DNA of 64,000 nt from Marinobacter salinus (lineage in GTDB: Bacteria > Pseudomonadota > Gammaproteobacteria > Pseudomonadales > Oleiphilaceae), in the NCBI RefSeq assembly GCF_001854125.1, contig NZ_CP017715.1:1364001-1428000 (forward strand), read 5' to 3'. Of this stretch, positions 33,901 to 53,946 are shown piece after piece. How positions within the stretch are numbered: position 1 is the stretch's first letter; every line of letters begins with the position of its first letter. A model generated the notes under the pieces. The model ran no database searches and had not been told where the DNA came from. It worked only from the letters and a program-made list of their open reading frames with translations. The position numbers and the translations under genes were made by a program.

Positions 33901-33957
33901 GGAAATAATGGAGGCGCGGGTCGGAATCGAACCGGCGTACACGGAGTTGCAGTCCGC
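33901..33957 (-). repeat. Left attachment repeat with tRNA-Cys 3' fragment
   Basis: This copy is identical over 57 bp to 52361-52417. It includes 49 bp of the tRNA-Cys 3' half, from the first base of the anticodon stem to the CCA end, plus 8 bp beyond. The match ends sharply at both sides. It is the displaced original tRNA end and marks the left island boundary. Confidence 0.9.
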
Positions 33958-34143
33958 ATTTCCTTTATTTTCAAATGCTTATGTTGCCTCTAGGGGCGCC
34001 AAACAAATTATTCTGTACCCCCCTAATGTATACATCTATAGGAAGTAACGCAACGCTTCTGCAGATCCTCCTCTCTAGATCAACAACAGAAATCCTGCTG
34101 ACTCCGCTGAAGTTTTTTTGCAAAGCTTGTAATGAGCCAAGAG

Positions 34144-35148: not shown

Positions 35149-35221
35149 CTCATGAGCTCATGCCTTCATTACCAGCTCTCCATTCCAGCAGGAAGACACG
35201 CGATATTGGCCATGCTGCCAA

Positions 35222-36955: not shown

Positions 36956-37696
36956 TGTTCAACATCCTTGCGTAGTTATTTCAAGACTAACGTTAGACAG
37001 GTTTGGTATTGATGTGAAGTTCTGAGTTTTATGCCCTTGGGGCATATGCCCATAATAGCCCAACAAGAAACTGACGCTTTTCTCACGCCACCCAAGCTCT
37101 GAAAAACATTCACCTCATATTTTCAAACGCATTATTGAGTTTAAGAACGCTTGAAATTCCCACCGTCCCCATTCTAATTGCATAAGCTGAAAACGCCCTG
37201 TTAGGCCTCTGGACGCTAACGTGACCAGCTCTGCTCTGGCTTTGCCACCCCAAGAATCTACGACATAACCTCCTGATATTTAGGCTTCAGGTTGTACATG
37301 ACGGCTACCGAAGCCCTCAGTAAATCAACCCAATATAGAGCCAAAAAAGCCATTCTTATTAGGAGCTTACCGTAACGCCTACATGCGCCAATGCTTTTTC
37401 GAGGTCTTCAGAAAAAGCCCTAACCCCCCCCCAGACCTTCGAGATATCGTCTTCGGTAAATGTCCGTAACACTTTCTGCTTTATGCGACTTTATTGTGTT
37501 CTCAAATGACTAAAACGCAGATTCACTCTCAAACCCACCAAATCAGGCTCATTGCGGGGAACTGGGTTCACCAAGCCCTGTCGTGTCAACTTGTTCCTGA
37601 GGCTCACACCGCAAAGCTTGGGCTTTAGGAGTAGACCGTTTCAGCCCAATTCTGATAGCGTGCAAACAAAACCACAAGGAATAAGGTGTGCAATAA
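36956..37696. other. Intergenic gap with overlapping palindromes and a coding remnant
   Basis: A 741-bp gap between the divergent Mrr-type and helicase genes. Near its left end, ATGCCC-ttg-GGGCAT (37031-37045) overlaps GGGCATATGCCC (37040-37051), a strong candidate operator 76 bp before the Mrr gene. On the minus strand, 37359-37490 is an open stretch of 43 codons with plausible protein sequence (VLRTFTEDDISKVWGGVRAF, then EDLEKALAHVGVTVSS) and a stop, but no ATG; it may be the remnant of a lost gene. Nothing else is recognisable. Confidence 0.4.
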
Positions 37697-39571: not shown

Positions 39572-39576
39572 AAGTT

Positions 39577-40353
39577 ATGCTCGAAGATATTTACTCAAAA
39601 ATTCATCCACTGAGCGTGGGCGACGTTGGGGTTTGTTATTACTGTGGGTGCGAGGCGGAAAAAATTGACTACGCACCCTCAGTCAAATACTTAGATTTTT
39701 TCCTGGAAACCAGAGAAAGCGCAGCTTACTGCATGCTTCCTTGTTGTATAGAATGCTTTTCTTTTCTTATTGATTCCAGGGAAGGATTAATTGAAAACCG
39801 TAAAAAGATTGTCGATAAAGGAATTAAGAAGAAGTACAAAAAAGCCCTCTCTATATATGAACGTTGGTCCGAAGATGAAATATCTGAACTTTCATTAGAC
39901 CTTCAGAAGAGCGTTTTAGCGGGCATAGAACTGGGTAAGGAAGCAGTATCTAGAATAACCTTTCCCGGCTTTGAGTACGAAATTGATGGAACTGTATTTC
40001 ATAAGAGGCAGGTTGAATCACGAAGCTTCTACGTCTTCGGTGAGCGATTTGTAAATTTCCGAAACGCCCTTCAATATGCTTCCAGAGCGTACAACATAAA
40101 TATAAATAAGCTCAAAGAGTTAGTGATGGATCACGGCAATTCATTTGATGCTGCTCTTGAAACCTATTTCGATGAGCTTGAACGTGAACGACTTGAGAAG
40201 CTGAGGAAAAAGCTGTCAAAAGAATTTGCCACTGAACACAAGCAAAACGTCAATTTTATCATTGGAGCCCTAGAGGCATATGAAGCGGCAAACCCTGAGC
40301 TGTCGCTCCAGGAATGTCTTGATTTGATTTACGAGGAACGGATTAAAAAGTAA
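39577..40353 (+). CDS. Zinc-finger/HNH-like partner protein
   Basis: A 258-residue protein with a treble-clef-like N-terminus. Cys-x2-Cys (CYYCGCEAEKIDYAP) near residue 20 and a second cysteine group (MLPCCIECFSFL) near residue 52 resemble HNH nucleases of the form CYYCG...DHVPP...PACxECN. The catalytic His position appears to be Tyr (DY-AP), so the nuclease may be inactive or the active site may differ. The rest is helical and lysine-rich and unrecognised. It follows the helicase by 5 bp and must be co-expressed. Function is unknown. Confidence 0.55.
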   Translation: MLEDIYSKIHPLSVGDVGVCYYCGCEAEKIDYAPSVKYLDFFLETRESAAYCMLPCCIECFSFLIDSREGLIENRKKIVDKGIKKKYKKALSIYERWSEDEISELSLDLQKSVLAGIELGKEAVSRITFPGFEYEIDGTVFHKRQVESRSFYVFGERFVNFRNALQYASRAYNININKLKELVMDHGNSFDAALETYFDELERERLEKLRKKLSKEFATEHKQNVNFIIGALEAYEAANPELSLQECLDLIYEERIKK

Positions 40354-40654
40354 GCAGGGGTCTCTACTATCGCTCGCTTTATTACTCATTTATTTTTCCT
40401 TCGGCTCTTTTTCAGAATTTGTAACCATCCCTGTTTTTAGTTGCACCGCCAACTAGAGTTTTGCGTCAGTCGGCTTTTCAGTCATTGGGGACGATCCAAT
40501 GGAGCGAGTGGAAAGCTCCAATCAGCGGTGAAACTGAGACAGGTTGTTTAAACGGCAATCCAAGCTTCTGCCTCTGAGAGGAGGTGAACAAGCAACAGAA
40601 TGGCTAGTGGGCTACAGTTTCAACTTGGTAAGGCAGGCAATAGGAACTTAGAGA
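40354..40654. other. Intergenic gap with a possible 20-codon leader
   Basis: This 301-bp gap has no recognisable gene. A strong ribosome-binding sequence (GAGGAGGTG, 40578-40586) stands 13 bp before an ATG at 40600 that opens a 20-codon frame ending at 40662, inside the start of the next gene (40655). This could be a translational leader. The palindrome GTTTAAAC lies near 40546. I see no terminator. Confidence 0.25.
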
Positions 40655-41257
40655 ATGGATGATGTAGCGTCGGGCCTAGCGGGAATCCTTGGCGGGACAG
40701 CCGGTTTTTTATCTCTTGCGTTAAATTGGCTAGTGCATTGGAGGTCGGGCCCTAGGGTGAAGATTCGTGTAAGACAGTTTGTCTATGTGGACCCTCTTAG
40801 CAACGATGCTCGCTTTGGTAGGTCTACACCCCAAAAACCTAAGACAGGAGATATAACAACCTTCTGCAGATTTGAAATTGCCAACGTTGGAAGAAGCACG
40901 ACAACCATTCTAGCAGTAGATATGTTGGAGTCAGTCCAAAGAGATTGGCGAAGGTTTGGAAAGGCAATTGGTCTTACAAGAGTCCCCCACCATGCTTTCA
41001 TTTCCGGGGATACACGGGCCGTTCCAGTTACCCTTCACGGTGGCGAAACTTGGGCTTGCTTTATACCAATGGCCCAGCTCGGGGAGAAGGAGACTAAGTC
41101 ATTCAGAGTGCTATGCTCCCACCAAGAACGGCCAATCAGGAACAAGGTGAAACGCAGGATGGGAGGAGTATTATCGGGGAACAACATGAAACTACTCTTC
41201 CACCTACCTGTTAACCAGACTGGCGCACAAAATAACATGGGGAGGGACAGCAGCTAA
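40655..41257 (+). CDS. Membrane-anchored protein of unknown function
   Basis: A 200-residue protein I do not recognise. The N-terminus has one hydrophobic segment (about residues 7-28, LAGILGGTAGFLSLALNWLV) and so is probably anchored in the inner membrane. The rest looks like a beta-rich soluble domain (KIRVRQFVYVDPL, FCRFEIANVGRSTTTILAVDML). No catalytic motif is visible. It stands alone between the helicase pair and the convergent restriction gene. The start at 40655 is fixed by an in-frame stop just upstream. Real-gene status rests on composition and length only. Confidence 0.45.
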   Translation: MDDVASGLAGILGGTAGFLSLALNWLVHWRSGPRVKIRVRQFVYVDPLSNDARFGRSTPQKPKTGDITTFCRFEIANVGRSTTTILAVDMLESVQRDWRRFGKAIGLTRVPHHAFISGDTRAVPVTLHGGETWACFIPMAQLGEKETKSFRVLCSHQERPIRNKVKRRMGGVLSGNNMKLLFHLPVNQTGAQNNMGRDSS

Positions 41258-41291
41258 CCCAGCCGTTTGTTTTCATGTCAGAAATTTCTGA

Positions 41292-41328
41292 GGGGGGTTT
41301 CGAATATCAAGATTCAAAATTACCCCCC
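41292..41328. terminator. Imperfect hairpin between convergent genes
   Basis: GGGGGG (41292-41297) pairs with CCCCCC (41323-41328), with inner matches TTT/AAA and GAAT/ATTC around a 6-nt loop. It lies between the 3' ends of the membrane-protein gene and the convergent restriction gene, so it could end transcripts from both sides. There is no U-tract. A perfect 14-bp palindrome (TCAGAAATTTCTGA) precedes it at 41278-41291. Confidence 0.45.
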
Positions 41329-41339
41329 CGTACCCCGCT

Positions 41340-42011
41340 CTAGCTCCCCAAATTGAGAACGCCCTGTTCGGTTTCTGGAGGCTGAAGCACGGCAGGTATA
41401 ACCGAGTGCTTGATGTGGAACTTCACGTCGTGAGCAACTTGTTCGAGAGTTTCTCCCCTATCTTTACACCGAGTTGCCCATTCCCTCCCGGGATGTAGGA
41501 CATCCCACCTGGAACGAACTTGGCCGTACCTCCCACGTCCCGGGTCGTTATTGCCGAAACCATCCAAATATCTGTTCCAAACAGGCATGAACTTGGATAT
41601 CAACAAAGCCTCACCAAGAGGAATCCAGATATCTTCAACCACAAGGTATTTACAGAAAAAATCCTCTATCTGAAGATTCGTAGCCTCTTTAATACTTCCC
41701 GCATGCTTTGTGAGGCGTGAATACAACGGTGTGCCTTTTGCCGATAACTCGTCAGTCACGCCCTTTCTTTTTCCTTGAGGGTCAGCTTTTCCCACGTATA
41801 TGGGGCAAACAAGCTTTTGTGGCGAATTTAACGCCCCTAAGTCTGCGTAGGCGTCAAAAGTTCCACAGTAATAGATTAGATAAAGCCCTGCCCCGTTGAA
41901 GCGCTCCAGTTGGTCCAAACGTACAGGACTCGAAGACAAAATAGCTTGCCCAATACTCTCGGCCAGATTTTTCTTGTTTAGCGGGTCAAACGGATGAGAC
42001 GAACCAGACAT
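41340..42011 (-). CDS. Eco29kI-family restriction endonuclease (GIY-YIG)
   Basis: A 223-residue type II restriction enzyme. The GIY-YIG motif is seen as GLYLIYYCG near residue 42 and CPIYVGKADPQG near residue 70, and WNRYLDGFGNNDPGRGRYG near 145-165 belongs to the Eco29kI-type core. Eco29kI cuts CCGCGG; whether this enzyme has the same specificity is inferred from family only. Its start overlaps the methyltransferase stop by 1 bp (TAATG), so modification is translated first. Confidence 0.83.
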   Translation of the reverse strand: MSGSSHPFDPLNKKNLAESIGQAILSSSPVRLDQLERFNGAGLYLIYYCGTFDAYADLGALNSPQKLVCPIYVGKADPQGKRKGVTDELSAKGTPLYSRLTKHAGSIKEATNLQIEDFFCKYLVVEDIWIPLGEALLISKFMPVWNRYLDGFGNNDPGRGRYGQVRSRWDVLHPGREWATRCKDRGETLEQVAHDVKFHIKHSVIPAVLQPPETEQGVLNLGS

Positions 42012-43219
42012 TAAGACAGCCTCGCCTTGGCCAGTGATTTCTTGAGCTGGTCCTCTTGGACTTTCAGCAAAGCTTGAGCAACACTTGAAGCGACACGTTG
42101 TCCAAGGGCCAGCGGGACAGCGTTACCGAGCTGACGCATCGTTTCAGTCCAAGAACCGTGAAATATATAAGTATCAGGGAATGTCTGGAGTCTGGCAGAC
42201 TCGCGGACAGTGAAGTATCTGACCTCCCCGCTCGGCTTTACCAACATATTCTCTCCACCCGGCACACCGTGGACGCCTGCTTTCAATGTCTTGGCCGGCA
42301 AATCGATTGGACTGCCGGTGTGCCCTGGATAGGTACGCGCTCCTGGCTGAAATTTATGATTCAGGAAGATTTCGCCAGTCTTTTGTTCAGGGTCAGGCAT
42401 ACCCTTCAAAGCATCCCGAACAGTATTCCATCGAGACCGACTAGGCACGTCTACATTAAGTTTCTCAACTCGATTTCTAAGCCTTCCTTCCATAGAGGGA
42501 CGATCCTTCTTTGCGACCCCATGATAGTCCCAATACTCACCGGTAACCCATTGGGAATGCAGGAGGGCATCATACGAGTGTGTCTCCTGCGGAAAGGTCC
42601 ATTCAACGTGCAAATCGTGGCGGAACCCAACGAAGAAGATTCGCTCTCTCTTCTGCGGCACTCCATAGTTGGCAGCGTTCAAAACCCTAAACACAACTTC
42701 ATAGGTAGAGGAATCTTTACTCCCAGAAGTTTGATACCTCTCCAGCCGCCCCAAGTGGTCTAGCCACTCTTCATTTTCTCTCGCTACAACTTCCGGGAAC
42801 TCAAGCTGAAGTCTGATGTAGTTAAAATACTCTGCGAAGGTCTTGCGAGTCAGGCCTTTTACATTCTCGATAATAAAAGCCTTTGGCTTCAGCTCCCGAA
42901 TTGCCCTAACGGTCTCCGGAAACATATCTCGTTCGTCAAGAAAGGCCCGGTGTCGGCCTCCTTGCGAAAATGGTTGGCACGGTGGCCCACCAGCAACCAA
43001 ATCAACCTCACCGTCGATGTCTTCATAAGAGAAATGCCTGACATCCAGCTCATAAAGCGGCCAACCATTTACTATCGGGTTCCCTCTGGACTGGTTTTGG
43101 CGAATTGTGTCGCACGCCCACCTATCCCGCTCAACTACAGCCAATGGACTAAAGCCTGCCAGCGACACGCCCATGCCCAGGCCTCCCGCACCAGTGAACA
43201 GTTCAACCGCTTTCATCAT
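42011..43219 (-). CDS. DNA (cytosine-5) methyltransferase of the Eco29kI-like system
   Basis: A 402-residue m5C methyltransferase. Motif I is ELFTGAGGLGMG at residues 6-17, motif IV is GGPPCQPFSQGG with the catalytic Cys, motif VI is FIENVKGL, motif VIII is KRERIFFVGFR, and motifs IX-X appear at VRESARLQTFPD and QLGNAVPLALG. It protects host DNA from the partner endonuclease. GAGGAAAACCAG precedes the ATG pair at 43219/43216; a TTG at 43243 is a weaker alternative. A vsr gene lies 68 bp upstream on the same strand and would repair deamination products of the modified cytosines. Confidence 0.9.
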   Translation of the reverse strand: MMKAVELFTGAGGLGMGVSLAGFSPLAVVERDRWACDTIRQNQSRGNPIVNGWPLYELDVRHFSYEDIDGEVDLVAGGPPCQPFSQGGRHRAFLDERDMFPETVRAIRELKPKAFIIENVKGLTRKTFAEYFNYIRLQLEFPEVVARENEEWLDHLGRLERYQTSGSKDSSTYEVVFRVLNAANYGVPQKRERIFFVGFRHDLHVEWTFPQETHSYDALLHSQWVTGEYWDYHGVAKKDRPSMEGRLRNRVEKLNVDVPSRSRWNTVRDALKGMPDPEQKTGEIFLNHKFQPGARTYPGHTGSPIDLPAKTLKAGVHGVPGGENMLVKPSGEVRYFTVRESARLQTFPDTYIFHGSWTETMRQLGNAVPLALGQRVASSVAQALLKVQEDQLKKSLAKARLS

Positions 43220-43286
43220 CTGGTTTTCCTCAAAACTCAACAAACACGCCGACCGAATATATCAGACTAACCAATGGCTTTGACCC

Positions 43287-43697
43287 TCAATGGTCTAATA
43301 AGAAGCCACAGAGTTTCTCACGTAGGGCAATATCATCAGACAACTCGCACTCCCAGACTATTAAGACACTCCAGCCTTGCCGCTCTAATTCACAAACATT
43401 ACGTGCGTCACGAGCTTTGTTGTCCTCGAATTTTTTCCTCCAAAACTCCTCCCGGGATTTAGGAAAACGAGCCATTGAGCACCCTTCGTGACGATGCCAG
43501 AAGCAGCCATGGACGAATATGATTTTCTGCTTTTTCGCAAAGACAATATCTGGTTTTCCGGGCAGGTCCCCGCGATGCAATCGATACCGAAACCCCAGTG
43601 AATGGAGTAGCTTACGGACATGGAGTTCAGGAGAAGTGTTCTTCCCCCGCACCTTTCCCATAATCTCACTTCGCTTCGCCTTCGAAACTGAATCCAT
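43287..43697 (-). CDS. vsr: Very short patch repair endonuclease Vsr
   Basis: A 136-residue mismatch endonuclease. MGKVRGKNTSPELHVRKLLH, then RLHRGDLPGKPDIVFAKKQK with the catalytic Asp, and VHGCFWHRHEGC, with zinc and active-site residues, are diagnostic of Vsr. Vsr cuts T:G mismatches that arise when 5-methylcytosine deaminates, and so often travels with cytosine-5 methyltransferases. It is the first gene of the vsr-methyltransferase-endonuclease set. The ATG at 43697 was chosen over a GTG at 43709 because of its GTGGA ribosome-binding site. Confidence 0.9.
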   Translation of the reverse strand: MDSVSKAKRSEIMGKVRGKNTSPELHVRKLLHSLGFRYRLHRGDLPGKPDIVFAKKQKIIFVHGCFWHRHEGCSMARFPKSREEFWRKKFEDNKARDARNVCELERQGWSVLIVWECELSDDIALREKLCGFLLDH

Positions 43698-43822
43698 AGG
43701 ATTTTCCACGAAGGATAATGACCGTGGGCCAGTGGCAAGAGACTGAGCAAACAGCTCTGCGGGATTTACGAAAGCCCACCTCTATTCTTGAGGGCTATTC
43801 GAGCTCGAACTTTCTGCAATCA

Positions 43823-44560
43823 TCACTTGAAAGCGTCAGGCAAGTCTTCAACCAAAAGCTCTCTCACCTGCAAATATTCTTCGGATGGAGTTTCACCTAA
43901 GATGACCTGAATTTGGTCCATGACAAACGCCTGAGCTTCGGTCGAAAGAAAATGATTTTCTGGAGCGGAACCACACTGGAGAGGGTCGATGAATAAGTGG
44001 TCTAGGCGGATAACACTATCCTCTTTAATGACTCCTCCAGACTTGGGCACCCAAAAGAACTCAGGATACATTAAGCTCCGGATTCGAGCGCACATCACCG
44101 AACCAAACGAGGTGGCTTTCTTTTGCGAAGATGCTGCATATAGCGGTGCTAATAGATACTGGCTTCCGAAGGCATTCAGTGCTTTCTGTCTCTGAACACC
44201 CAGCGGTAAAGTCGATGCATCTACACCATCCACCTTTCCGATAATTAAGCAGAGGCGTTTCTTGGCACGACTGAGAATCAGCTCGTGGTTTTCAGTAAGG
44301 TTTAAAGCATGGACGGGAAGCCGAGCTTCTTTCCCGCGAAAGTCCCGAGTGTCATCGAACCTTCGAATTTCCAGTTCAGCGGAGTCGTGTGTAGTTGCGG
44401 CTGAGCGTTTAACATCCGCAACCCAAGGGCGACGCTCTTTCTCAAGCACAGGCACCCAACAAAACTGCCCCGACTCTGGCAACTCACCCTTGGTCCGCGT
44501 CGAGTCGTACATGGAATTTACGAACGAAAATATGTCGAGAAACTCTTCCTTGTCGCTCAT
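43823..44560 (-). CDS. Possible PemK-like toxin partner of a Panacea antitoxin
   Basis: A 245-residue protein that shows a PemK/MazF-like pattern: GQFCWVPVLEKERRPWVADV, then RLCLIIGKVDG, QYLLAPLYAA, and VIRLDHLFI near the C-terminus. It is longer than typical PemK toxins. The gene starts 21 bp after the probable antitoxin gene, the usual antitoxin-first order. MazF/PemK toxins cleave mRNA. The assignment comes from pattern and position only; a different small beta-barrel fold is possible. Confidence 0.5.
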   Translation of the reverse strand: MSDKEEFLDIFSFVNSMYDSTRTKGELPESGQFCWVPVLEKERRPWVADVKRSAATTHDSAELEIRRFDDTRDFRGKEARLPVHALNLTENHELILSRAKKRLCLIIGKVDGVDASTLPLGVQRQKALNAFGSQYLLAPLYAASSQKKATSFGSVMCARIRSLMYPEFFWVPKSGGVIKEDSVIRLDHLFIDPLQCGSAPENHFLSTEAQAFVMDQIQVILGETPSEEYLQVRELLVEDLPDAFK

Positions 44561-44581
44561 TATGAATTTCCGATTTGGTGG

Positions 44582-45328
44582 TTACTCGTAAAGCCGTGAG
44601 AGGTTTGCAGAGGCCTTAAGATGCTGCCCCTTGTCTCCATCGACCTCATTAGCAACCTCAGAAAGCTCTGACTCGAAAGCCATGTAGTGTTCGTCGTATA
44701 TTCCTCGAGTCGGCTTTTCCTCTAGCTCTCGGGACTTTAGAAATGCAGCCGCCCTCTTGGCCATAAGCGCCTGGATACGCTCGGCCTTGGCCTTGCTGAT
44801 TTGCATTCTAAAAGACCGAACATCCTCAGGTTTTGCTTCTGAATCAGGTCCTGGAAATGATAGAAGCTTCCCCGGCTTCGCGGACTGCATTGGTTCCGTT
44901 TCAAAATAAACGTGATTGAGTAGACTTCTCAGGTCATACCGGAAGCGCCCCAAATCCGTTTCCAGCCTTAGCGGCACGCCTCTGGGCAAATCCAAATCTC
45001 GAAGAGAGGCCCTCGAGGTATTACTCGGTAACCTGTAGATTCGCGCAACTGCTCCATCCCCAGCTTCCGTCTCTACACCTTCCATAGTAAGGGAACCGGT
45101 GTCAGCCATTTGACGGATAGTCTGGTCTATTTTGCGGCTGTAAGGTCCAAAATGATGGAAGATCCAGTCGGATGTCGACTGAACGTAGTCGGAGTCTCGC
45201 AGCGATGAGTAATAGTCTAGCAAATACAGATACTTGGTCAGGGCAGTTGTGGAAAGACCATTACTACCCTGCCCCTCTGCAGCAGCAAGAATTGCTTTGA
45301 TGTATTGCTCTATTCTCGTCGCGTTCAT
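44582..45328 (-). CDS. Panacea (SocA/DUF4065-like) antitoxin
   Basis: A 248-residue protein with the Panacea-type core in its N-terminal half: LSTTALTKYLYLLDYYSSLR, then DWIFHHFGPYSRKID, close to the family pattern in which a KLLYLxD segment is followed by xYGPV. Panacea domains neutralise many unrelated toxins. The C-terminal 100 residues are charged and likely contact the toxin. It precedes the PemK-like gene by 21 bp on the minus strand. A search against DUF4065 would settle the assignment. Confidence 0.55.
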   Translation of the reverse strand: MNATRIEQYIKAILAAAEGQGSNGLSTTALTKYLYLLDYYSSLRDSDYVQSTSDWIFHHFGPYSRKIDQTIRQMADTGSLTMEGVETEAGDGAVARIYRLPSNTSRASLRDLDLPRGVPLRLETDLGRFRYDLRSLLNHVYFETEPMQSAKPGKLLSFPGPDSEAKPEDVRSFRMQISKAKAERIQALMAKRAAAFLKSRELEEKPTRGIYDEHYMAFESELSEVANEVDGDKGQHLKASANLSRLYE

Positions 45329-45727
45329 CTAACTCTGTTTTGACTAAGCCTTGAGTGGGGCTAATGCGAAAGGCTGCGCATCTTATCGCTAGCTGTAACT
45401 TACAATCAAGTTAAGCCCTTCGTGGTGCCATCCAGACAGATTATTCTCCCTTTAGTTCAAGGTAGCCCCTTAGACTGATTTCTTCCTCACGACCTTCGGA
45501 TTACATTCGACCCTGCCGCATGAGGCTAGCTTACAAATCCTGCGTTGTCTGTCTCGTTCTATTCTTTACGTGAACTAAGGCCGAATCGTTTAAATATCCA
45601 GTATCGCTTTGGTATAGCTTTACGAAACCACCAATCGGAGCTCCGCTACTGGTTTCATTTTATCTATTGACCACCCAAACGAAACCGCTATTATAAAACC
45701 AGTCTAACGAAACCAGCGGGGGAAAGT
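45329..45727. promoter_or_regulatory. Candidate res site with repeated CGAAACC words
   Basis: This 399-bp gap between the Panacea gene and the serine recombinase holds a cluster of related words just before the recombinase: CGAAACCA at 45623-45630 and 45708-45715, CGAAACC at 45680-45686, and the inverse TGGTTTCA at 45650-45657. This spacing is like the subsites bound by serine resolvases. The left half (45329-45600) shows nothing recognisable. The recombinase promoter should overlap these words, so binding would also self-regulate it. Confidence 0.5.
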
Positions 45728-46342
45728 ATGTTTGTTCGCGCCTACCTGCGGGCCTCTACTGAGGACCAAGACGCAAACCGAGCAAGGGAGGAGCTTGATA
45801 GCTTCGCTTCAGACAAGGGACTGACTATCGCGGCCTATTACATCGAGAATGAATCAGGTGCACAGCTCAATAGGCCAGAGCTCTTTCGTCTTCTCAATGA
45901 CTGCCACAAGGGCGACATTCTTCTCGTTGAGCAGGTTGATAGGTTGAGTCGCCTCAATGCGGATGATTGGGAAACACTGAAACGCCGAATCAAAGACAAG
46001 GGCGTCCGAATCGTAGCTATTGACCTGCCCACTTCCTGGATGATGGTTGGCACTGAAGACGAGCTCACCGCACGTATGATGGACGCATTGAATGAGATGA
46101 TGCTGGACATGCTCGCAGCAATCGCCCGGAAGGACTATGCGGATAGACGAAGAAGACAGCGACAGGGCATCGAGAAGGCTAAGGCTCAAGGTAAGTACAG
46201 GGGCAGACCTATCAACAAAGAACGGCACCAGAATATCCTCACCATGATTGCCAAAGGCCACAGCTGGACTGAGGTTTCAAGAATAACGGGAGCCTCCCGA
46301 GCTACGATTGCCCGAGCAATAAAACAAGCTAACGAAACTTAG
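45728..46342 (+). CDS. Serine recombinase (resolvase/invertase family)
   Basis: A 204-residue small serine recombinase. The catalytic Ser is Ser10 in RAYLRASTEDQDA, and EQVDRLSRLN is the conserved helper motif. The long E helix (about residues 105-140) leads to a C-terminal helix-turn-helix (SWTEVSRITGASRATIARAI), preceded by KYRGRPI, as in resolvases. It resolves or inverts DNA between paired sites. GGGGGAAAG precedes the ATG. The repeated words just upstream (45623-45715) are the likely res site. It may stabilise the island or belong to a nested element. Confidence 0.88.
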   Translation: MFVRAYLRASTEDQDANRAREELDSFASDKGLTIAAYYIENESGAQLNRPELFRLLNDCHKGDILLVEQVDRLSRLNADDWETLKRRIKDKGVRIVAIDLPTSWMMVGTEDELTARMMDALNEMMLDMLAAIARKDYADRRRRQRQGIEKAKAQGKYRGRPINKERHQNILTMIAKGHSWTEVSRITGASRATIARAIKQANET

Positions 46343-46816
46343 AAGCTCCCAAATATTCAGCCGACCCTGATCGGTATCATCAATAAGAGCGCGGGCCATG
46401 CTTCCCGCCTCTATACCCAAATTCCTGGGACCAGCCATCTCCCAAGTGATACTCAGGTTTTGGGTCTACCCCATTGGGTAAAAACACTCCGATACCAGAC
46501 CTAGCCTACTTCCCAAATGGATCATTAAGGCCTTCAGAGAGGGTCTTTTTTGGGTCTACACCATCGGGTGAAAGTACTCCGACACCAGACTTAGGCTCCT
46601 TCTCAAAAGGATCATTTAGGCCTTCATTAGGGGTCTTTTTTTGGGTCTACCCATGTGGGGGAAATAACTCCCCTCTCTCCCGAATAAACCGCAGAAAACC
46701 AGAGCCGATTGCCACCCCCGTCCATGTTGCCTCCGCCATCAGGTCGAGAGTCTCAACGCCTTTCGTCTCTGGGGGTCTGTTCCTTGTTCAACTTGCATAC
46801 ATTCCCGGAGGACTTT
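46343..46816. other. Gap containing hairpin and tandem repeat array
   Basis: The 474-bp gap after the serine recombinase contains no convincing gene. A short GC hairpin (GCGGG/CCCGC, 46391-46408) may end the recombinase transcript. The main content is the tandem repeat array at 46461-46665. The end of the gap carries a good ribosome-binding site (CGGAGGAC, 46807-46814) for the gene starting at 46817. Confidence 0.5.
46461..46665 (+). repeat. Two and a quarter tandem ~90-bp repeats, candidate origin
   Basis: Units start with TGGGTCTAC at 46461, 46551 and 46642, so the periods are 90 and 91 bp; the third copy is cut after about 24 bp. Shared words in each full unit are CCAT-GGGT, ACTCCGA-ACCAGAC, GGATCATT-AGGCCTTCA and GGGTCTTTTTT. 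Repeats of this kind upstream of replication genes are often iterons or a replication origin. The rest of the block (RNase HI, polymerase-like protein) supports that view. An alternative is a regulatory array. Confidence 0.7.
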
Positions 46817-47089
46817 ATGCGAACAGAAACCCGCCATGTTCGACAACACAACGGACGAACCATTTATCACGTCAACTTATGCCCTGACAGCCGCCAAGCG
46901 GTGGGGGCTATTCAAAGCACACTTCTGGCCCGCTGCGGGCTCAAGTACAGCTTCTCGGTAGTTCTACGCGCCCTGTCGCTCATGACCGCCCAGGGGCTTC
47001 CCACAACTGACATCAACGAGCTCATTCAGTACTGCCGCCTGTGCGCTTCCAAAGGCAGGAAACAGCGAAACGAAGGAGTTACATCATGA
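46817..47089 (+). CDS. Small basic protein of unknown function
   Basis: A 90-residue protein beginning MRTETRHVRQHNGRTIYHVN. I do not recognise the family. Residues about 40-70 (CGLKYSFSVVLRALSLMTAQ) could form helices of a ribbon-helix-helix-like DNA-binding fold, and the C-terminus is basic. A strong ribosome-binding site precedes the ATG. It overlaps the next gene by 4 bp (ATGA), which argues that both are real. Position beside the repeats makes a replication or repeat-binding role plausible but unproven. Confidence 0.55.
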   Translation: MRTETRHVRQHNGRTIYHVNLCPDSRQAVGAIQSTLLARCGLKYSFSVVLRALSLMTAQGLPTTDINELIQYCRLCASKGRKQRNEGVTS

Positions 47090-47301
47090 CAGCCAACAAC
47101 CTACGCAGAAGCAAACACGAGGTCATTCATCAACAACTCGAAAAAGGAGGTTTCCGTGGCCCCATCAATGCCAAGTGCGTTGAATGCATTTACGACCCGG
47201 AAGCAAAGGGCACCTGGAGACAGCAAGTCCAAGCCTGCACCTCGAAAGGCTGCCCCCTTTTCCCGGTGAGACCAACACCTATCAAGGTAATCAGCGAATA
47301 A
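47086..47301 (+). CDS. Small CxxC zinc-binding protein
   Basis: A 71-residue protein. Cys-x2-Cys (AKCVECIYDP) and Cys-x4-Cys (ACTSKGCPLFPVRP) could hold one zinc ion. Proteins of this pattern are common in phages and integrative elements, where they have no settled function. The start at 47086 overlaps the preceding gene stop and is preferred over an upstream in-frame start at 47041. A terminator at 47370-47403 follows. Confidence 0.6.
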   Translation: MTANNLRRSKHEVIHQQLEKGGFRGPINAKCVECIYDPEAKGTWRQQVQACTSKGCPLFPVRPTPIKVISE

Positions 47302-47369
47302 CGCCAAATTCTTTACTGAAATTCCAGTATTCGCCCCCTACCCCCGACCAAACATCGCATCAACGGTGA

Positions 47370-47403
47370 AGGCTCTCTGGATTCTCGACAGAGGGCCTTT
47401 TTT
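47370..47403 (+). terminator. Rho-independent terminator before RNase HI
   Basis: AGGCTCTCTG (47370-47379) pairs with CAGAGGGCCT (47389-47398), with one G-T pair, around a 9-nt loop. A run of T follows. It lies between the zinc-finger gene and the RNase HI gene 19 bp downstream, in the same direction, so the replication-like genes need read-through or their own promoter. Confidence 0.75.
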
Positions 47404-47421
47404 ATATAGGAGTTAGCCAAA

Positions 47422-47901
47422 ATGACCACCACCAAAGCGAGAGACTTTATTCGAATCTCAACAGATGGTTCCTGCATCGGAAACCCGGGGCCCGGAGCTT
47501 GGGCTTTTGTAGTCGTCGACGAAAAGGAATCAGAAACTCTAGAGGTGCAATCCTCGCGATATGCCAGCACGACAAACCAACGAATGGAGTTATCGGCTGT
47601 CATCGCGGCTCTAGAAGCCTTTCAGGACACAGACAGGCCTATTCTGGTTGAGTCCGACAGTCAGTATGTAGTGAAGGGAATCACTGAATGGGTCCCCTCG
47701 TGGAAGGCAAGAAACTGGAAAACAGCGGCCCGTAAACCCGTCAAAAACGCCGACCTCTGGCAACAGCTCGACACACTCGCGAGTGACCGCGATATCACCT
47801 GGCAATGGGTTAAAGGCCACGACGGCAACGCCAACAACGAAAGGGCTGACTTTCTGGCCTACTCCATGGCTAGTTCAGAGGAGGTGCGCTGTGGCTCCTG
47901 A
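47422..47901 (+). CDS. Ribonuclease HI
   Basis: A 159-residue type I RNase H that cleaves RNA in RNA-DNA hybrids. The full catalytic set is present: Asp15 (STDGSC), Glu56 (MELSAVI), Asp79 (ESDSQY) and Asp143 (NERADFLA), with His133 in VKGHDGN. Length is normal for RNase HI. This is an island copy, separate from a housekeeping rnhA. It overlaps the polymerase-like gene by 11 bp, which places RNA primer or hybrid processing together with a polymerase-like protein. A terminator hairpin sits just upstream. Confidence 0.9.
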   Translation: MTTTKARDFIRISTDGSCIGNPGPGAWAFVVVDEKESETLEVQSSRYASTTNQRMELSAVIAALEAFQDTDRPILVESDSQYVVKGITEWVPSWKARNWKTAARKPVKNADLWQQLDTLASDRDITWQWVKGHDGNANNERADFLAYSMASSEEVRCGS

Positions 47902-49198
47902 GCAACTAACCCTCCCCCCTGAGGGAGCAGCCTTCTCATCGCTTGAATGGATGTGCCGCTTCGGGCCAAACGAAAAGCTGACCAAAGTTGTGGGGGCCCC
48001 TGTGAAAACAACGTATCTGTCACCCCAAACAGCGGAATGGGGACTTACCGGCGAGGGAGTATCTGAAATGCTTAATCAAATCGGCGTCTCAGCAAGGTAT
48101 CTACAACCCCATGCTGAAGCCTTGGGAATTATCCTGAAGGCAATGCTGGCGGCCCTGAAGCCGAATAGCAGTATCAACGGGGTATTTGCTGTTTGTTTGA
48201 GCCGTGCTGCCTCTTCATTCTCCACTCCACCAAGATATCGGACCAACCGGATTGGTCTTAAAACGTGGACAAGGGTAATAGACTCATTAGAACGAATGGG
48301 ATTTATCGAAAAGCTCTGTGGTGGCTTCAAAGGGGAGGGATATTTCCAGGGACTCACAAGCACGTATGTTCCGACTCAGACAACCAGTGACTGGTTCAGC
48401 GAACACAGCTCTGGGCTCTCATTGGCCCACTTATCAGCTAATGAGCCACTGCTGCTGACCAGCAACAAACGGCTAATCGATTACCCTGACAACGAACACA
48501 CAAACGCTCTCAGACGCCAAATTGAAGATATCAACACCGTGAATCGGGCTCACCACTTTGGCCTACAGAAGGGCCTAGAGGTCATCTCTATAGACCAGCG
48601 CCTGCTTACAGGTAAACGCAGGTTCAGGGACGACTTCCAAAGTGGCGGACGCATGTTTCTGGCCCTCCAACAGCTCAAAAAGAAAGAACGGGCAAACTTG
48701 ATAATTGATGGTGAGAAAACCGTAGAACTGGACTTCAGTTCCCATGCACCCCGCATGCTTTTTCATGCAAACGGTCGCCCTGCCCCGAGTGACTGTTATG
48801 CCCATGCTTCAGTGCCGAGGCAAATTATGAAAGAAGCGATGCTGAGGGTAACCAACTGCGACACCCGCAGTACGGCACTTCGGAGCCTGACTGTACTCTT
48901 GAGAGAGCGGGGAATCGACTACTTTTCTCCAAAGGAGCTGCTGACAGCTGTCGAAGAAACCAATCCGTTTGCCGTCAAAGGAATGAAGCCCGGAAGGTGG
49001 AAGGAGATTCAGTTCCTTGAAAGCAGAATTGCCTGCGGTATAGCACACCAACTTCACAAACACGATGTTCCCTGTCTGCCAATTCACGACTCCTTTGTCG
49101 TTAGACAGCGGGACAGGGACACCTTGATGCGTGCCATGCATGAGGAGTATCGGAAGCAGTTTCCTGAGTTCTCACCAGTGGTTACTGAGGCTGGGTAG
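47891..49198 (+). CDS. Compact protein with family-A-polymerase-like motifs
   Basis: A 435-residue protein of a widespread but unnamed mobile-element family, as I recall it. The N-terminal half resembles a winged-helix domain. The C-terminal half has polymerase-like motifs in order: VELDFSSHAPRML with Asp281 as a possible motif A, PRQIMKEAMLRV with Arg310 and Lys314 resembling motif B (R-x3-K), and CLPIHDSFVV with Asp400 as possible motif C. The segment DDFQSGGRMF before motif A matches the family. The thumb and exonuclease domains of PolA are missing. The start is GTG at 47891, with a strong AGAGGAGG site; it overlaps the RNase HI stop by 11 bp. A replication or primer-processing role is inferred. 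Confidence 0.6.
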   Translation: MAPEQLTLPPEGAAFSSLEWMCRFGPNEKLTKVVGAPVKTTYLSPQTAEWGLTGEGVSEMLNQIGVSARYLQPHAEALGIILKAMLAALKPNSSINGVFAVCLSRAASSFSTPPRYRTNRIGLKTWTRVIDSLERMGFIEKLCGGFKGEGYFQGLTSTYVPTQTTSDWFSEHSSGLSLAHLSANEPLLLTSNKRLIDYPDNEHTNALRRQIEDINTVNRAHHFGLQKGLEVISIDQRLLTGKRRFRDDFQSGGRMFLALQQLKKKERANLIIDGEKTVELDFSSHAPRMLFHANGRPAPSDCYAHASVPRQIMKEAMLRVTNCDTRSTALRSLTVLLRERGIDYFSPKELLTAVEETNPFAVKGMKPGRWKEIQFLESRIACGIAHQLHKHDVPCLPIHDSFVVRQRDRDTLMRAMHEEYRKQFPEFSPVVTEAG

Positions 49199-49241
49199 GA
49201 TGAATATGAACGATGACGACATCTACGTCGGTCAGAATACC

Positions 49242-49311
49242 TAATGGACCCACCTAATGCTCAATAAGAGTAGACCTAATGGACTCACCCAATGCTCACT
49301 AACAGTAGACC
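49242..49311 (+). repeat. Two tandem 35-bp repeats before the integrase gene
   Basis: Copy 1 (49242-49276) and copy 2 (49277-49311) match at 31 of 35 positions. Both begin TAATGGAC and end AGTAGACC, with CACC and AATGCTCA between. GTAGACC and CCCAATG are the reverse complements of GGTCTAC and CATTGGG in the 90-bp repeats at 46461, so the two arrays may bind the same protein. Integrase arm sites or iterons are both possible. Confidence 0.6.
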
Positions 49312-49380
49312 TATGAAAACACCACTTCGGCCTCCCATCACGGGGGGCCAATCAGATTAATCTGGAGGAAAATTGAACCT

Positions 49381-50481
49381 ATGGCAGTGAAAGAACACCC
49401 GAAGGGATATCGGCTAGATATCCAAATACGGCACTACCCGAAAATCCGAAAAGTTCTAAGAGGAGTAGACGAGGTCGAAGCAAAGGCTATTCACGATTCA
49501 GTAATTGCCCAACTCCGGTCAGGGATTCCCAAGGAAGAACTCGACTTTGAGGCCCGGAATGGTTCTGAGCCCCTCCTCGTCTCTGAGAAGTTAACTGTCG
49601 GGGAGGCTTTTGACCAAGCCCTGCGGACCAAGTGGCGCAATAGGCAGTCATTACCAAGCTACTATTCATCTCTCGGTAAAACCACTGCAGAACGCTTTGG
49701 AAGGAAAAAGCGCCTTGCGGAGGTCCAGCCCAGAGATATCAGCAACTTCGTTGATGTTTGCCTTAGGAAAAAGGACAGCCCCTCCACTATCAACCATCGT
49801 CTGGCCCTCCTACGCAATATATGGACATATGCCATCCATCACTGGGAAGTTCCCGGCGTCAGAGAGATTGAGTGGAGCTACTACCGCCAGCGTAATGCCC
49901 GATATAACAGGAGTCGCGAAATCACGCCCGAGGAAGAGAAGACCATCCTGTCCCTTCTGAAAGGGTTCCACAACAAAGGAGCCCAACAGATGGCTAATCT
50001 CGTTCAGCTAGCCCTTTGGACAGGCCTCCGTCAGGGGGAACTTCTTGGCCTGGAGGTAAGAGACTTCGAGCGCGACTATTCCCGCTTACGAATTTCGCGG
50101 TCAACAGGCTCGAAAACAACCAAAACGGGACAGACTCGGTATATCCCTGTCCGAGGCCCAGCTTGGGAAATGGTCGATGAGCTCGCAGTAGAGGCTAGGG
50201 AGACGCGCCGTGTCCGATTGTTCCATGAACTAAACAAAGATAGGGTCAAAGCACTCTGGAGAAAGGTACGAAAAACGATGAATCTGGAGAGTGACCCCGG
50301 TTTCGTTTTCCATGCGCTTCGGCACACTTCTGCCACTCGATTAGCACGAAGAGGCGCAAGCACAAGGCATGTTCAGGAATGGTTGGGCCACGCGGATATC
50401 AAAACCACGCAGAGATACACTCATCTCGCCTCTAATGACCTAGACAACCTGGCTGACCTCATACAGCAGGCCCCGGCCTAA
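49381..50481 (+). CDS. Tyrosine recombinase (integrase 1)
   Basis: A 366-residue phage-type integrase. Residues in the C-terminal catalytic domain are Arg in GLRQGELLGL, the His-x-x-Arg motif HALRHTSATRL, His in WLGHADIKTT, and the Tyr nucleophile in TQRYTHLAS. The N-terminal arm- and core-binding regions cover about 170 residues. GGAGGAAAA precedes the ATG. It follows two 35-bp repeats that could be arm sites. It converges on a second, larger recombinase gene across a shared hairpin. Which of the two drives the tRNA-Cys integration is not proven. Confidence 0.9.
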   Translation: MAVKEHPKGYRLDIQIRHYPKIRKVLRGVDEVEAKAIHDSVIAQLRSGIPKEELDFEARNGSEPLLVSEKLTVGEAFDQALRTKWRNRQSLPSYYSSLGKTTAERFGRKKRLAEVQPRDISNFVDVCLRKKDSPSTINHRLALLRNIWTYAIHHWEVPGVREIEWSYYRQRNARYNRSREITPEEEKTILSLLKGFHNKGAQQMANLVQLALWTGLRQGELLGLEVRDFERDYSRLRISRSTGSKTTKTGQTRYIPVRGPAWEMVDELAVEARETRRVRLFHELNKDRVKALWRKVRKTMNLESDPGFVFHALRHTSATRLARRGASTRHVQEWLGHADIKTTQRYTHLASNDLDNLADLIQQAPA

Positions 50482-50488
50482 AATGCGA

Positions 50489-50538
50489 GGACGCCCGACG
50501 TAAGGGACCAATAGTTAAGCTTCCCTCAATGGGCGTCC
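50489..50538. terminator. Hairpin between the convergent recombinase genes
   Basis: GGACGCCC (50489-50496) pairs with GGGCGTCC (50531-50538), and an inner stem AGGGA (50503-50507) with TCCCT (50522-50526). It lies after the stop of integrase 1 and overlaps the last codons of integrase 2. It could end both converging transcripts. Confidence 0.55.
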
Positions 50539-52256
50539 CCGCCCCGCTTCTCGACTTCATCCCCTATGCGATATTCCGAGACCCTTATCCTAACGAGCTC
50601 ATATGCCGGAACTCTTGGTAAGTGTTCGATGGCCCGTTTGAGCGCCTGCGGACTGAAAGAACCATATTCGTTCGTCTGGCCCTTTAGGGAATGCCCATCA
50701 AGTGCAGCAATGATGCTTGTGTCGACACCTCTTTCCCTCAAACTCGTAGCAAAAGCGTGCCTGAACCCATGAAATGGCTTTGTACTCGGAGGCACCCCTT
50801 GCTCGCGCACGTAAACAGACCACTTTCTCTGGAGACTATCGCCATATTTTCCTCGTTCTGAACTATTCAGGTCCGGCCAAAGCTTTCCTGTTCTTGGCAG
50901 AGATTTGGCATAATCCAATAGCCCCAAAGCCATTAAATCGGAATGGATGGGGATATCCCTTGCATGCCCCGTTTTCGTTCTTTTGTCAGCCCCATTTGGT
51001 CGGATTCTGAAACACCAGATATCAGCGACCTGCTCGACATCCGTAACGTCAAGCGCGGCGATTTCTTCCCGCCTGGCCCCGGTATAGTACGAAATAACTG
51101 GTAGCCAAACGCCTGCGGCACCAAAGCGCAGCCTTTCTTCGTAGTCCGATTCAGCAAACCAGCCTCCATGGAATACCTTGGAGAGCTCATCGCGACTGTA
51201 TTCCCGCCTCACGAATTCCTTTCTCCGGCGGCGTCTGTTAGGAATTATTTCCGATGAGACTGGGTTAATTGTCAGCCCTGAACCGGGGATATCGAGAGCT
51301 GAGGTAAACAACGCACTTAGGTGAATCATGCGGTTGGAGACCGTTTCAAAGGACAAGGTCTTGAGTCCCTGCTCCTTCGCTATCCTCGCCTGTTCGGCCA
51401 AAGGTCTGGCCTTCAGCGCCTTTTTCGGCCTCGAGGGCGCTTCAAAGAGCAAATCACGATATGAACGCAGGTGGTCAGCTGTAACCCGGTTTATGGGAAG
51501 GTCACCGACGAAATCGATTAACCCGAAAACCGCAGCTCTGTAGTCTTCATAGCGTCGCCGCGCCGCTTGCTCGCCTAATTCCCTCGAAAGCTTTGCAACG
51601 TAACAATCCCATGTTTCCGATAGTGTCATCGAAGGGGCTTCAGCTGTCGCCTCAACCTTAGATTCCACTTCTGGGGTGGAGTATTTACCCATTTCCCTTT
51701 CGGATAGGTGATGTACAAGTAAACCAACTCTGGAAGCGAGCTGCCGAGCAAGGTTGATATATTCTCGTGATTCGGTGCGGAGGCCTGGACAACATCTGGC
51801 GACCAGTTGGGATAAATCGTCCTTAAAGGCTTCGACCACTAACTCGTCCAACTTCTGCTGGCCCTGCTTTTCTGCATCAGCAAGAGCACTCTGAAGGGGG
51901 CACTCAGGTTGACGGAGTGTCGTCCCATTCTCAACTGGCTCCTCAATCCAGTAATACCAATCTCGGAACGCTCCCTCCCGCTCAAGCTCGTCTATTTTTT
52001 CCTTAAGCCAGGTATCAGCTATTGAGGTGATTTGTACCGCAGACAGCACCGTTTCACCTGCAGCTTGTTTCTTGGCGTTATCTATAAGCGTTCTGAACTT
52101 TGAATACACAGCAGGAAACCTGAGGCGAGCCTCGTGAGGATCTTTGGTCTTGAGGGATTCTTTGAGTTCGGACCGCTTAACTATGGGCCGAAGCTCTTTG
52201 GGCACCGCAACGCGGCAGATGTAGACACCGTGACGATTTTTGCTTGGACTAGCCAT
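50526..52256 (-). CDS. Tyrosine recombinase (integrase 2, tRNA-Cys proximal)
   Basis: A 576-residue integrase. The N-terminus (MASPSKNRHGVYICRVAVP) matches the DUF6538 type found in island integrases. The catalytic residues are Arg in ARREEIAALDV, the His-x-x-Arg motif HGFRHAFATS, His in LDGHSLKGQ and the Tyr in TNEYGSFS. Its start is 113 bp from the 3' end of the tRNA-Cys gene and it is oriented away from it, the usual layout for the integrase that recombines at that tRNA. ATG at 52256 is preferred over a TTG at 52268. It is longer than most phage integrases. Confidence 0.88.
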   Translation of the reverse strand: MASPSKNRHGVYICRVAVPKELRPIVKRSELKESLKTKDPHEARLRFPAVYSKFRTLIDNAKKQAAGETVLSAVQITSIADTWLKEKIDELEREGAFRDWYYWIEEPVENGTTLRQPECPLQSALADAEKQGQQKLDELVVEAFKDDLSQLVARCCPGLRTESREYINLARQLASRVGLLVHHLSEREMGKYSTPEVESKVEATAEAPSMTLSETWDCYVAKLSRELGEQAARRRYEDYRAAVFGLIDFVGDLPINRVTADHLRSYRDLLFEAPSRPKKALKARPLAEQARIAKEQGLKTLSFETVSNRMIHLSALFTSALDIPGSGLTINPVSSEIIPNRRRRRKEFVRREYSRDELSKVFHGGWFAESDYEERLRFGAAGVWLPVISYYTGARREEIAALDVTDVEQVADIWCFRIRPNGADKRTKTGHARDIPIHSDLMALGLLDYAKSLPRTGKLWPDLNSSERGKYGDSLQRKWSVYVREQGVPPSTKPFHGFRHAFATSLRERGVDTSIIAALDGHSLKGQTNEYGSFSPQALKRAIEHLPRVPAYELVRIRVSEYRIGDEVEKRGGDAH

Positions 52257-52360
52257 ATTCAGAGACAAGCTTTGTACCCCCGCTCTGTACCACCGGAGGC
52301 GACCACTAGACTTACGTAAGTATCTGAAACGGCGAAATCTTAACTGATTTCAACGAGATA

Positions 52361-52417
52361 GGAAATAATGGAGGCGCGGGTCGGAATCGAACCGGCGTAC
52401 ACGGAGTTGCAGTCCGC
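52361..52417 (-). repeat. Right attachment repeat (tRNA-Cys 3' part)
   Basis: Exact 57-bp match to 33901-33957. The shared sequence starts at the first base of the anticodon stem and runs through the CCA end and 8 bp beyond. The element supplies this 3' half, so the tRNA stays intact. Integrases that use tRNA anticodon loops leave this pattern. Confidence 0.9.
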
Positions 52418-52442
52418 TGCATAACCACTCTGCCACCGCGCC
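52369..52442 (-). tRNA. tRNA-Cys (GCA)
   Basis: On the minus strand the sequence starts GGCGCGG, which pairs with CCGCGCC, and ends with encoded CCA. The anticodon loop is CTGCAAC with anticodon GCA, and the T arm contains GGTTCGATTCC. It is 74 nt long and intact despite the island in its 3' end. tRNA-Gly lies upstream on the same strand. Confidence 0.95.
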
Positions 52443-52533
52443 GGGTAAAAGTCCGAAAGGAAGAGGACTTTCATGCTCTCAGGTGGGCATTGAGAGACTG
52501 TGTTGACTTTTTAACCAGTTGAACTGGAAAAAT

Positions 52534-52609
52534 TGGAGCGGGAAACGAGATTCGAACTCGCGACCCCAACCTTGGCAAGGTTGTGCTCTACCAACTGAGC
52601 TATTCCCGC
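52534..52609 (-). tRNA. tRNA-Gly (GCC)
   Basis: On the minus strand it starts GCGGGAA, pairs with TTCCCGC, and ends CCA. The anticodon loop is TTGCCAA with anticodon GCC; the T loop is TTCGAAT. It is 76 nt long. Together with tRNA-Cys it forms the tRNA cluster that in many gammaproteobacteria follows pgsA; here thiBPQ and an Mla locus stand between. Confidence 0.95.
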
Positions 52610-52774
52610 TTGGTCAACGAGGGCGTATTCTACGGATTCGGCCGATTGCGTCAACCACTTTTTTCAACTTTCTGTTTTCGCTGGGTTTCTGGACATTTTT
52701 TGGTCGACAGACACGGTCTGTTCGGCCGTCAGTTCCTGCACAAGCCTCTCCGGTGCCATGATACAATATGACCA

Positions 52775-53930: not shown

Positions 53931-53946
53931 ACAGGCTTCTGCTCAG

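Follow-up and report, generated by a model that had tools for sequence, protein, structure and literature searches.

A predicted minimal polymerase of the PHROG 4756 family in a tRNA-Cys-targeted genomic island of Marinobacter salinus and its recurrence beside tyrosine integrases

We analyzed a stretch of 64,000 nucleotides from the genome of Marinobacter salinus (contig NZ_CP017715.1, positions 1,364,001 to 1,428,000; hereafter the window, whose first letter is position 1 of all coordinates below). It holds a gene for a protein of 435 amino acids (aa) that, judged from its modeled structure, is a divergent polymerase of the fold shared by PolA-type DNA polymerases and single-subunit RNA polymerases (ssRNAPs). 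The compact block of genes around it is part of a larger unit, an integrative genomic island of a kind marked by a tyrosine integrase and a polymerase of the family PHROG 4756. A preliminary description of the sequence had proposed a stripped-down family-A-like polymerase at this place, and that proposal stands: the model displays a palm and fingers of the PolA/ssRNAP type, and the residues that had been named are conserved. The parts of the polymerase gene are as follows.

47891..49198, + strand: polymerase of predicted PolA/ssRNAP fold, 435 aa, PHROG 4756 (profile match and structure model)
47996..48442, + strand: N-terminal domain, residues 36-184, possibly winged-helix-like (weak evidence)
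48434..49195, + strand: predicted palm/fingers domain, residues 182-435 (VIA-align)
48650..48652, + strand: R254 of GGR, a T/DxxGR-like motif (60/60 aligned rows)
48731..48733, + strand: D281, motif A (60/60)
48818..48832, + strand: R310 (56/60) and K314 (60/60), motif B
49088..49090, + strand: D400 of HDS, motif C (60/60)

Neither Pfam nor NCBIfam has a family that matches the protein. It does match PHROG 4756, a family of "unknown function," with an E value of 3e-41 over residues 95-422, and the same profile is matched by all 60 family members gathered here. These members form the alignment from which conservation was read (A3), comprising the window protein and 59 homologs that are 17-35% identical to it; it took in 59 of the 69 loci from pattern scans, with fragments and near-duplicates excluded. 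Six residues are invariant across its rows (R254, R267, D281, Y303, K314, and D400). Asp281, Arg310/Lys314, and Asp400, which the preliminary description had assigned to motifs A, B, and C, are kept even in very distant homologs. Such distances also shaped the searches: an eight-row alignment was too divergent for pattern search and a closer five-row one (A2) was used, one alignment step took 25 of 31 matched open reading frames (ORFs), and a further alignment (A4) held 51 of 57 eligible rows. Little was found by phmmer with the window protein against the PDB, or by single-sequence searches of viral contigs with the window protein and with one phage homolog. Nearly everywhere that we met the family in this analysis its members are labeled hypothetical or of unknown function, and a search of the open-access literature, of which the family number itself was only a small part, found no paper on it.

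The structure model made from A3 (AlphaFold pLDDT 87.8, pTM 0.83) has a palm fold on comparison with both PolA and T7 RNA polymerase (RNAP). By VIA-align, the solved structures that superpose on it include the apicoplast polymerase apPOL (5dkt; Z 14.8, root-mean-square deviation [rmsd] 3.7, 230 residues), the yeast mitochondrial RNAP (6ymw; Z 14.5, rmsd 2.9, 233 residues), and T7 RNAP (1s77; Z 14.2, rmsd 3.0, 232 residues), which are tied as matches, with T7 DNA polymerase also aligned (1tk8; Z 13.3, rmsd 3.4, 219 residues). The best 50 rows have Z scores of 12.9-14.8 over mostly 219-241 residues at an rmsd of 2.9-4.5 Å, and the absence of a family from these rows, such as the reverse transcriptases, does not count against that family. 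D281 and D400 are probably close in space, since the superposed range holds both. Foldseek against the PDB likewise puts PolA DNA polymerases and mitochondrial RNAPs at the top (best E 8.6e-5). Against BFVD, the first 11 matches (E < 1e-18) are phage proteins of 400-450 aa, and one match, from Rheinheimera phage Barba31A, is named "DNA polymerase." When the family profile was compared with PDB sequences, 23 matches were listed, none of them significant (E at least 0.027): 15 are Taq-type Pol I enzymes at profile positions 206-297 (best E 0.048), seven are winged-helix regulators of the PadR/TrmB/FadR type that fall in the N-terminal half (best E 0.027), and one is ribosomal S19. The value of these matches is their agreement with the structure models. 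The N-terminal domain, modeled alone (pLDDT 83.4, pTM 0.81), resembles the winged helices of MarR, TubR, LmrR, and MotA; the matches also include ribosomal proteins, and the first-ranked one is a ribosome chain. The domain looks, weakly, like a winged helix.

Family A polymerases are characterized by a Glu in motif A (the steric gate), a Tyr in motif B, and HDE in motif C, and the T7-like ssRNAPs by the Asp of DxxGR, the motif B Tyr, and HDS. The positions that carry His (286) and Asn (322) in most rows are, we assume, the sugar-selecting positions in both classes. With family A (Pol I, Taq, T7 gp5, and apicoplast Pol), the predicted protein shares the palm/fingers fold (Z about 13-15), a GR followed by a conserved Gln and Arg, a motif A of the form D-[FY]-S, a motif B R-x3-K, and the HD of motif C. 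Unlike these enzymes, it has a mere 435 residues, the approximately 180 before the palm are winged-helix-like, no exonuclease family was matched, and the family A Glu, Tyr, and HDE are replaced by His in 54 rows, Asn in 52 (N322), and HDS in 57 (S401) of the 60, with Ala, Asn, and Ser in the window protein. With the ssRNAPs (T7 and mitochondrial) it shares the same fold (Z about 13-14.5), the HDS motif, and a GRxY motif in most rows (Tyr two residues past GR in 48/60), yet it is half their size and has lost both the DxxGR Asp, which is present in six rows, and the motif B Tyr.

Profile comparisons are undecided. PF00476, the family A DNA polymerase model, has no match in the window protein, and DNA_pol_A is not among the best 25 of the 33 families matched by the 60 members. 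Weak matches to RNAPs are seen for phrog_2051 (seven members, best E 9e-4), phrog_414 (eight members, best E 0.023), and PF00940 (two members, best E 0.019; no match in the window protein). Profile alignment to T7 RNAPs (10 rows) covered motif C only (49 columns, probability 59%), and that to PolA (10 rows, T7 gp5 plus 9 of 19 host loci) covered the GR, motif A, and motif B region (129 columns, probability 32%). RNA polymerase II of phage N4 (gp15/gp16) is also a very small phage polymerase of the same class, but it consists of two chains, and its gp16 aligned with the family over 32 columns only (probability 4.5%). The evidence is thus split, the weak family matches pointing to RNA polymerases and the Foldseek ranking and PDB profile to DNA polymerases, and on sequences and models we leave the choice undecided.

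The gene lies within an element of 18.46 kb that has the marks of tRNA-targeted integration, namely, an integrase, an attachment-site (att) repeat formed by a tRNA 3' end, and an empty site in relatives. Its features, in addition to the polymerase gene, are listed below.

33901..52417: integrative element, att to att, 18.46 kb (57-bp perfect direct repeat at ends; empty site in relatives; G+C shift)
33901..33957: left att copy, the 3' part of tRNA-Cys
34144..35148, - strand: SLFN_AlbA_2 protein, cargo (PF04326, E 2.6e-14)
35222..36955, - strand: Mrr-like type IV restriction enzyme, cargo (PF04471, E 8e-32; PADLOC mREase_IV)
37697..39571, + strand: ResIII/DEAD helicase-like protein, cargo (PF04851, E 2.6e-05)
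41340..42011, - strand: Eco29kI-type restriction enzyme (PF09517, E 2.8e-65)
42011..43243, - strand: C5 DNA methyltransferase (PF00145, E 1e-58)
43287..43709, - strand: Vsr endonuclease (PF03852, E 8e-30)
45728..46342, + strand: serine resolvase (PF00239, E 2.4e-26)
46458-46547 and 46548-46637: direct repeats of ~90 bp, 82% identical, with a partial third up to 46671 (self-match E 1e-24)
46817..47089, + strand: small ORF, 90 aa (no significant family match)
47086..47301, + strand: small ORF, 71 aa, four cysteines (no significant family match)
47422..47901, + strand: RNase HI (PF00075, E 2e-44; catalytic acids intact)
49234..49303: two 35-bp repeats, 83% identical, adjoining the 3' side of the polymerase gene
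49381..50481, + strand: tyrosine recombinase, 366 aa (PF00589, E 6e-28)
50526..52268, - strand: tyrosine integrase, 580 aa, adjoining tRNA-Cys (PF00589, PF20172)
52361..52417: right att copy, overlapping the intact tRNA-Cys
52369..52442, - strand: tRNA-Cys, the integration target (ARAGORN)

The repeats, coupled small genes, RNase HI, 435-aa ORF, and recombinase that the preliminary description had listed are all found where it had placed them. Restriction genes abound in the island, whose G+C content is 48.5%, against 58.4% and 56.9% in its flanks. Of 61 genomes of the genus (the host's own included), 58 were matched across the tRNA-Cys by a query made of the joined flanks, two others were matched by a tRNA-Gly stretch only, and one was not matched; the left 160 bases of the query matched in the host genome alone. 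Two of five relatives examined (L369 and L370) have the site without the island: sequence corresponding to window positions 31246-32666 at 85-86% identity is followed by approximately 80 bases and then by the tRNA-Cys with window positions 52361-53936. The other three keep the right flank and have different sequence at the left. From the layout of the empty sites, about 1.2 kb also sits between the conserved flank, which ends at 32666, and the left att; this segment carries a pair of genes for an Xre-like antitoxin and a RES-domain toxin (32672-33849), which is missing at that place in both empty-site relatives. A second copy of the tRNA-Cys end, of 37-60 bp, is present in 10 of the 60 other genomes of the genus (in eight on the same contig, 3.6-95 kb away), so the tRNA-Cys looks like an integration hotspot of the genus. 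By Pfam, no Rep protein or primase was found among 17 island ORFs, smaller ORFs lying outside the scan, and the ResIII/DEAD protein is the sole helicase-like match among them. The 580-aa integrase is related to integrases at 10 other loci of the polymerase family. Its gene and that of the 366-aa tyrosine recombinase, which differ from each other, are convergent at the island's right end (49381-52268).

The association of the polymerase gene with integrases extends well beyond this island. It was counted over 60 genomic loci, 20 from a search of the order and 40 of the 42 from a pattern scan of genome_contigs (L063 and L065 were dropped as repeats of L043 and L045; L069, identical to L070, and some fragments were counted). 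A tyrosine integrase, the commonest of the neighbors tested, lies within 3 kb of the gene in 37 of these loci (34/53 after removal of seven fragments or duplicates) and within 1 kb in 24. The 12 integrase matches in the 4.12 Mb of the host genome lead us to estimate about 0.02 per locus by chance. These counts rest on an integrase model that was built from integrases near the polymerase gene and that misses some, such as that of G191, which is inside the att repeats and more than 3 kb away. The same model found an integrase within 3 kb in 0/6 phage loci and 2/27 viral loci; one phage record (L008) annotates an integrase/recombinase about 3.9 kb from the family gene. A serine resolvase is within 3 kb at 13 of the 60 genomic loci. 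In 20 stretches picked for a nearby tRNA or for the availability of a long stretch (the polymerase genes of two, G084 and G115, being fragments), repeats of a tRNA or tmRNA end enclose the integrase and polymerase genes in 15, in addition to the window; seven of these repeats are of 47-73 bp and eight of 16-24 bp, with spans of about 3.9-12.2 kb. The smallest island, that of G123 at a tRNA-Ser with a 20-bp repeat, contains two ORFs of about 140 aa besides the integrase and the polymerase gene. Cargo elsewhere includes DNA methyltransferase and ResIII genes (L054, L064, and L071). A Desulfovibrio island (L080:5861-18042) has Cas9, Cas1, and Cas2 between tRNA-Leu repeats, so that a small integrative element here carries a CRISPR system. 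In eight whole contigs, no exact terminal repeat of 15-200 bp, sought as a sign of free circles, was found. The recurrence of the gene beside integrases in att-bounded islands makes the "small replicon or satellite" of the preliminary description plausible.

Other elements of that interpretation fared less well: whereas its polymerase call was both nontrivial and correct by the models, the coupling of RNase H to the polymerase as a general principle was an over-reading. In the window, the start codon of the polymerase ORF is the GTG at 47891; the ORF shares 11 nucleotides with the RNase HI gene and is preceded, at 5 nucleotides, by an AGGAGGT box, a strong ribosome site, so the two genes are probably cotranslated; the two small ORFs overlap by 4 nucleotides. 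Beyond the window, RNase HI lies within 3 kb at two of the 60 loci, in M. litoralis and Marinomonas. The catalytic D, E, D, and D are present in the copies of the window and of M. litoralis, as they are in the host's own rnhA elsewhere in the genome (residues that we take to be catalytic by reference to Escherichia coli RNase HI). The window RNase HI shares 44% identity with its M. litoralis counterpart, 43% with the enzyme of the host, and as much as 48% with further chromosomal copies (3 of 23 chromosomal loci are left out of the comparison), which does not demonstrate joint descent of the pair. The Marinomonas copy (L063:8707-9384), nearest to that of M. litoralis at 33%, lacks two or more of the catalytic acids and may be inactive or have taken on another function. 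Given this rarity and loss, RNase HI appears to be an accessory of few islands. Nor do the repeats travel with the polymerase gene, as they are not conserved across loci. Repeats were rejected as a conserved origin: arrays lie within 1.5 kb of the gene in only 7 of 61 loci, and those of L046, L049, L059, and L060 are within ORFs; their density is 0.77 per 10 kb near the gene versus 0.43 elsewhere. The ~90-bp repeats of the window have no RNA fold clearly beyond shuffled sequences (z -1.7 to 0.8) and no Rfam match. Marinomonas has direct repeats of its own between RNase HI and the polymerase (L063:9416-9726; 38-48 bp, 157-185 bp apart), which differ from those of the window.

The family is widespread, and it is shared with phages. 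By tblastn, 91 phage records matched (20-30% identity in the best 40), of which only four cover 80% of the query; by host, they belong to Vibrio (74, ICP1 included), Aeromonas (9), Shewanella (5), and Pseudoalteromonas (3). Two plasmids also match. Alignment-profile searches of a sample of 390 genomes from the order (E up to 1e-5) and of 398 from the phylum (E up to 1e-8) found the family in 31 and 24 genomes, respectively, the host's own genome and some fragments included in both, and pattern scans yielded 42 genomic and 27 viral loci, mostly from Pseudomonadota. Other records are named as Thermodesulfobacteriota, Planctomycetota, Spirochaetota, Bdellovibrionota, Myxococcota, and Bacillota, many of them binned genomes. 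Some labels of such bins may be wrong, since an identical family protein occurs in bins named Acidimicrobiales (L069) and Proteobacteria (L070), one of which is probably mislabeled or contaminated. Similarly, Limimaricola (L075) and an IMG/VR contig (L107) have identical family proteins, and this "viral" contig may belong to that very genome. One Brevundimonas genome has a pair of very similar family genes far apart (L088 and L089), which suggests recent movement. In a quick tree of 82 rows, with long branches and unsure deep forks, the window protein is sister to that of M. litoralis (support 99) inside an open group of nine rows (88) that also takes in Marinomonas, Reinekea, and Pseudidiomarina; the six rows from phages are split between two groups, and genome and viral rows are partly mixed. 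The published phage descriptions list a primase and a distinct DNA polymerase of 730 aa in Barba18A (PMC6715854) and a Pol-I-type polymerase and helicase-primase in ICP1 (PMC7145576). Since these phages have a polymerase of another kind, the family protein would be an extra enzyme there.

We tentatively propose that the polymerase could well be an initiator-polymerase for excised islands. The integrase would first excise the island, whereupon the winged-helix-like N-terminus would bind the island's origin and the polymerase domain would make the first nucleic acid there, be it a primer or a leader strand; host polymerases would extend it, and the circle would thereby be copied. The serine resolvase would resolve multimers ahead of reintegration. 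In a small clade, island-borne RNase HI might trim the RNA end of the primer or an R-loop, a role comparable to that of RNase H in the replication of ColE1 and of mitochondrial DNA; this step would be optional because the gene is present in few family loci. Several observations weigh against this proposal and the readings beneath it. No activity, excision, or replication was observed. The TM-scores that Foldseek gives against solved polymerases are low, at 0.21-0.46 by query length over the best 50 rows, and the winged-helix similarity is weak, its levels (best Z 6.4, Foldseek E 0.018) being possibly those of chance. The att repeat was not found in 5 of the 20 stretches (G234, G308, G397, Marinomonas, and L066). 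Moreover, the loci were collected via the polymerase gene, so its constancy is built in, and the link with the integrase is the only independent one. RNase HI seldom accompanies the gene and is degenerate in Marinomonas, and no conserved origin-like repeat was found near the gene among the 61 loci. Finally, with a separate polymerase and primase in the Barba phages, the job of the family need not be bulk replication.

The protein might instead be a small ssRNAP that transcribes island or phage genes from a private promoter while the host takes care of replication. This we regard as unlikely, even though the weak member matches are to RNAPs, the motif C region is the part that aligns with T7 RNAPs, S401 and the Tyr after GR are as in T7 RNAP, and ICP1 already has a DNA polymerase; the DxxGR Asp is retained in just six rows, Asn stands where T7 RNAP and Pol I alike have Tyr, motif A is like the D-Y-S of PolA with Glu changed to His, and every one of the 15 polymerase matches in the PDB profile search is a Taq-type Pol I, with no RNAP. 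The prominence of those matches, together with the first rank of PolA-type DNA polymerases in Foldseek and the frequency of the integrase as a neighbor, would also suit a DNA polymerase that fills gaps or completes strands in the service of the integrase, for instance on an excised molecule or one that is integrating, and initiates no replication. However, tyrosine integrases ordinarily have no need of repair synthesis, the host has Pol I, and the integrase model found none in any of the six phage stretches, notwithstanding the one annotated in L008, which renders this role decidedly improbable. The restriction or CRISPR genes of several islands suggest yet another role, that of a defense effector akin to the Abi/DRT reverse transcriptases, which would respond to an attacking phage by making nucleic acid that is toxic or protective. 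It is the least probable of these roles: the polymerase has no PADLOC match, the cargo varies between the islands that share it, and phages themselves carry the gene.

Comparable islands have been described. PICMIs are defined by an integrase, AlpA, a DUF3987/DUF5906 primase, and a fis site, and they and other phage satellites resemble the present islands as small att-bounded units with an integrase and one nucleic-acid-making gene (PMC10803314). They differ in that a PolA-fold protein and a tRNA site are seen here, with no AlpA or DUF3987/DUF5906 primase among the 17 Pfam-scanned ORFs. The islands of picocyanobacteria at tRNA-Phe and tRNA-Cys share with ours a tyrosine integrase, often a small serine recombinase, the tRNA site, and restriction-modification cargo, and a polymerase is not named in the part of their description compared (PMC10187409).

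Returning to the initiator-polymerase proposal, it has a broader form, which is possible but doubtful as a whole: PHROG 4756 would comprise one-chain initiator-polymerases, in which a winged helix is joined to a minimal PolA-type palm, marking a broad undescribed class of tRNA-targeted islands that replicate when excised, the smallest consisting of little beyond the integrase and the polymerase gene, and that share the gene with ICP1-like phages. One clade would have added RNase HI and so arrived at a prokaryotic counterpart of the primer system that RNA polymerase and RNase H1 form in mitochondria. If the polymerase does replicate small defense islands, this would help to explain the spread of islands that showed no other replication gene, and the polymerase gene would be a marker for finding such islands. 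More generally, a very small PolA-fold enzyme with alterations at the positions that we take to choose between ribo- and deoxyribonucleotides would be useful for the question of how the DNA and RNA polymerases that share this fold diverged.

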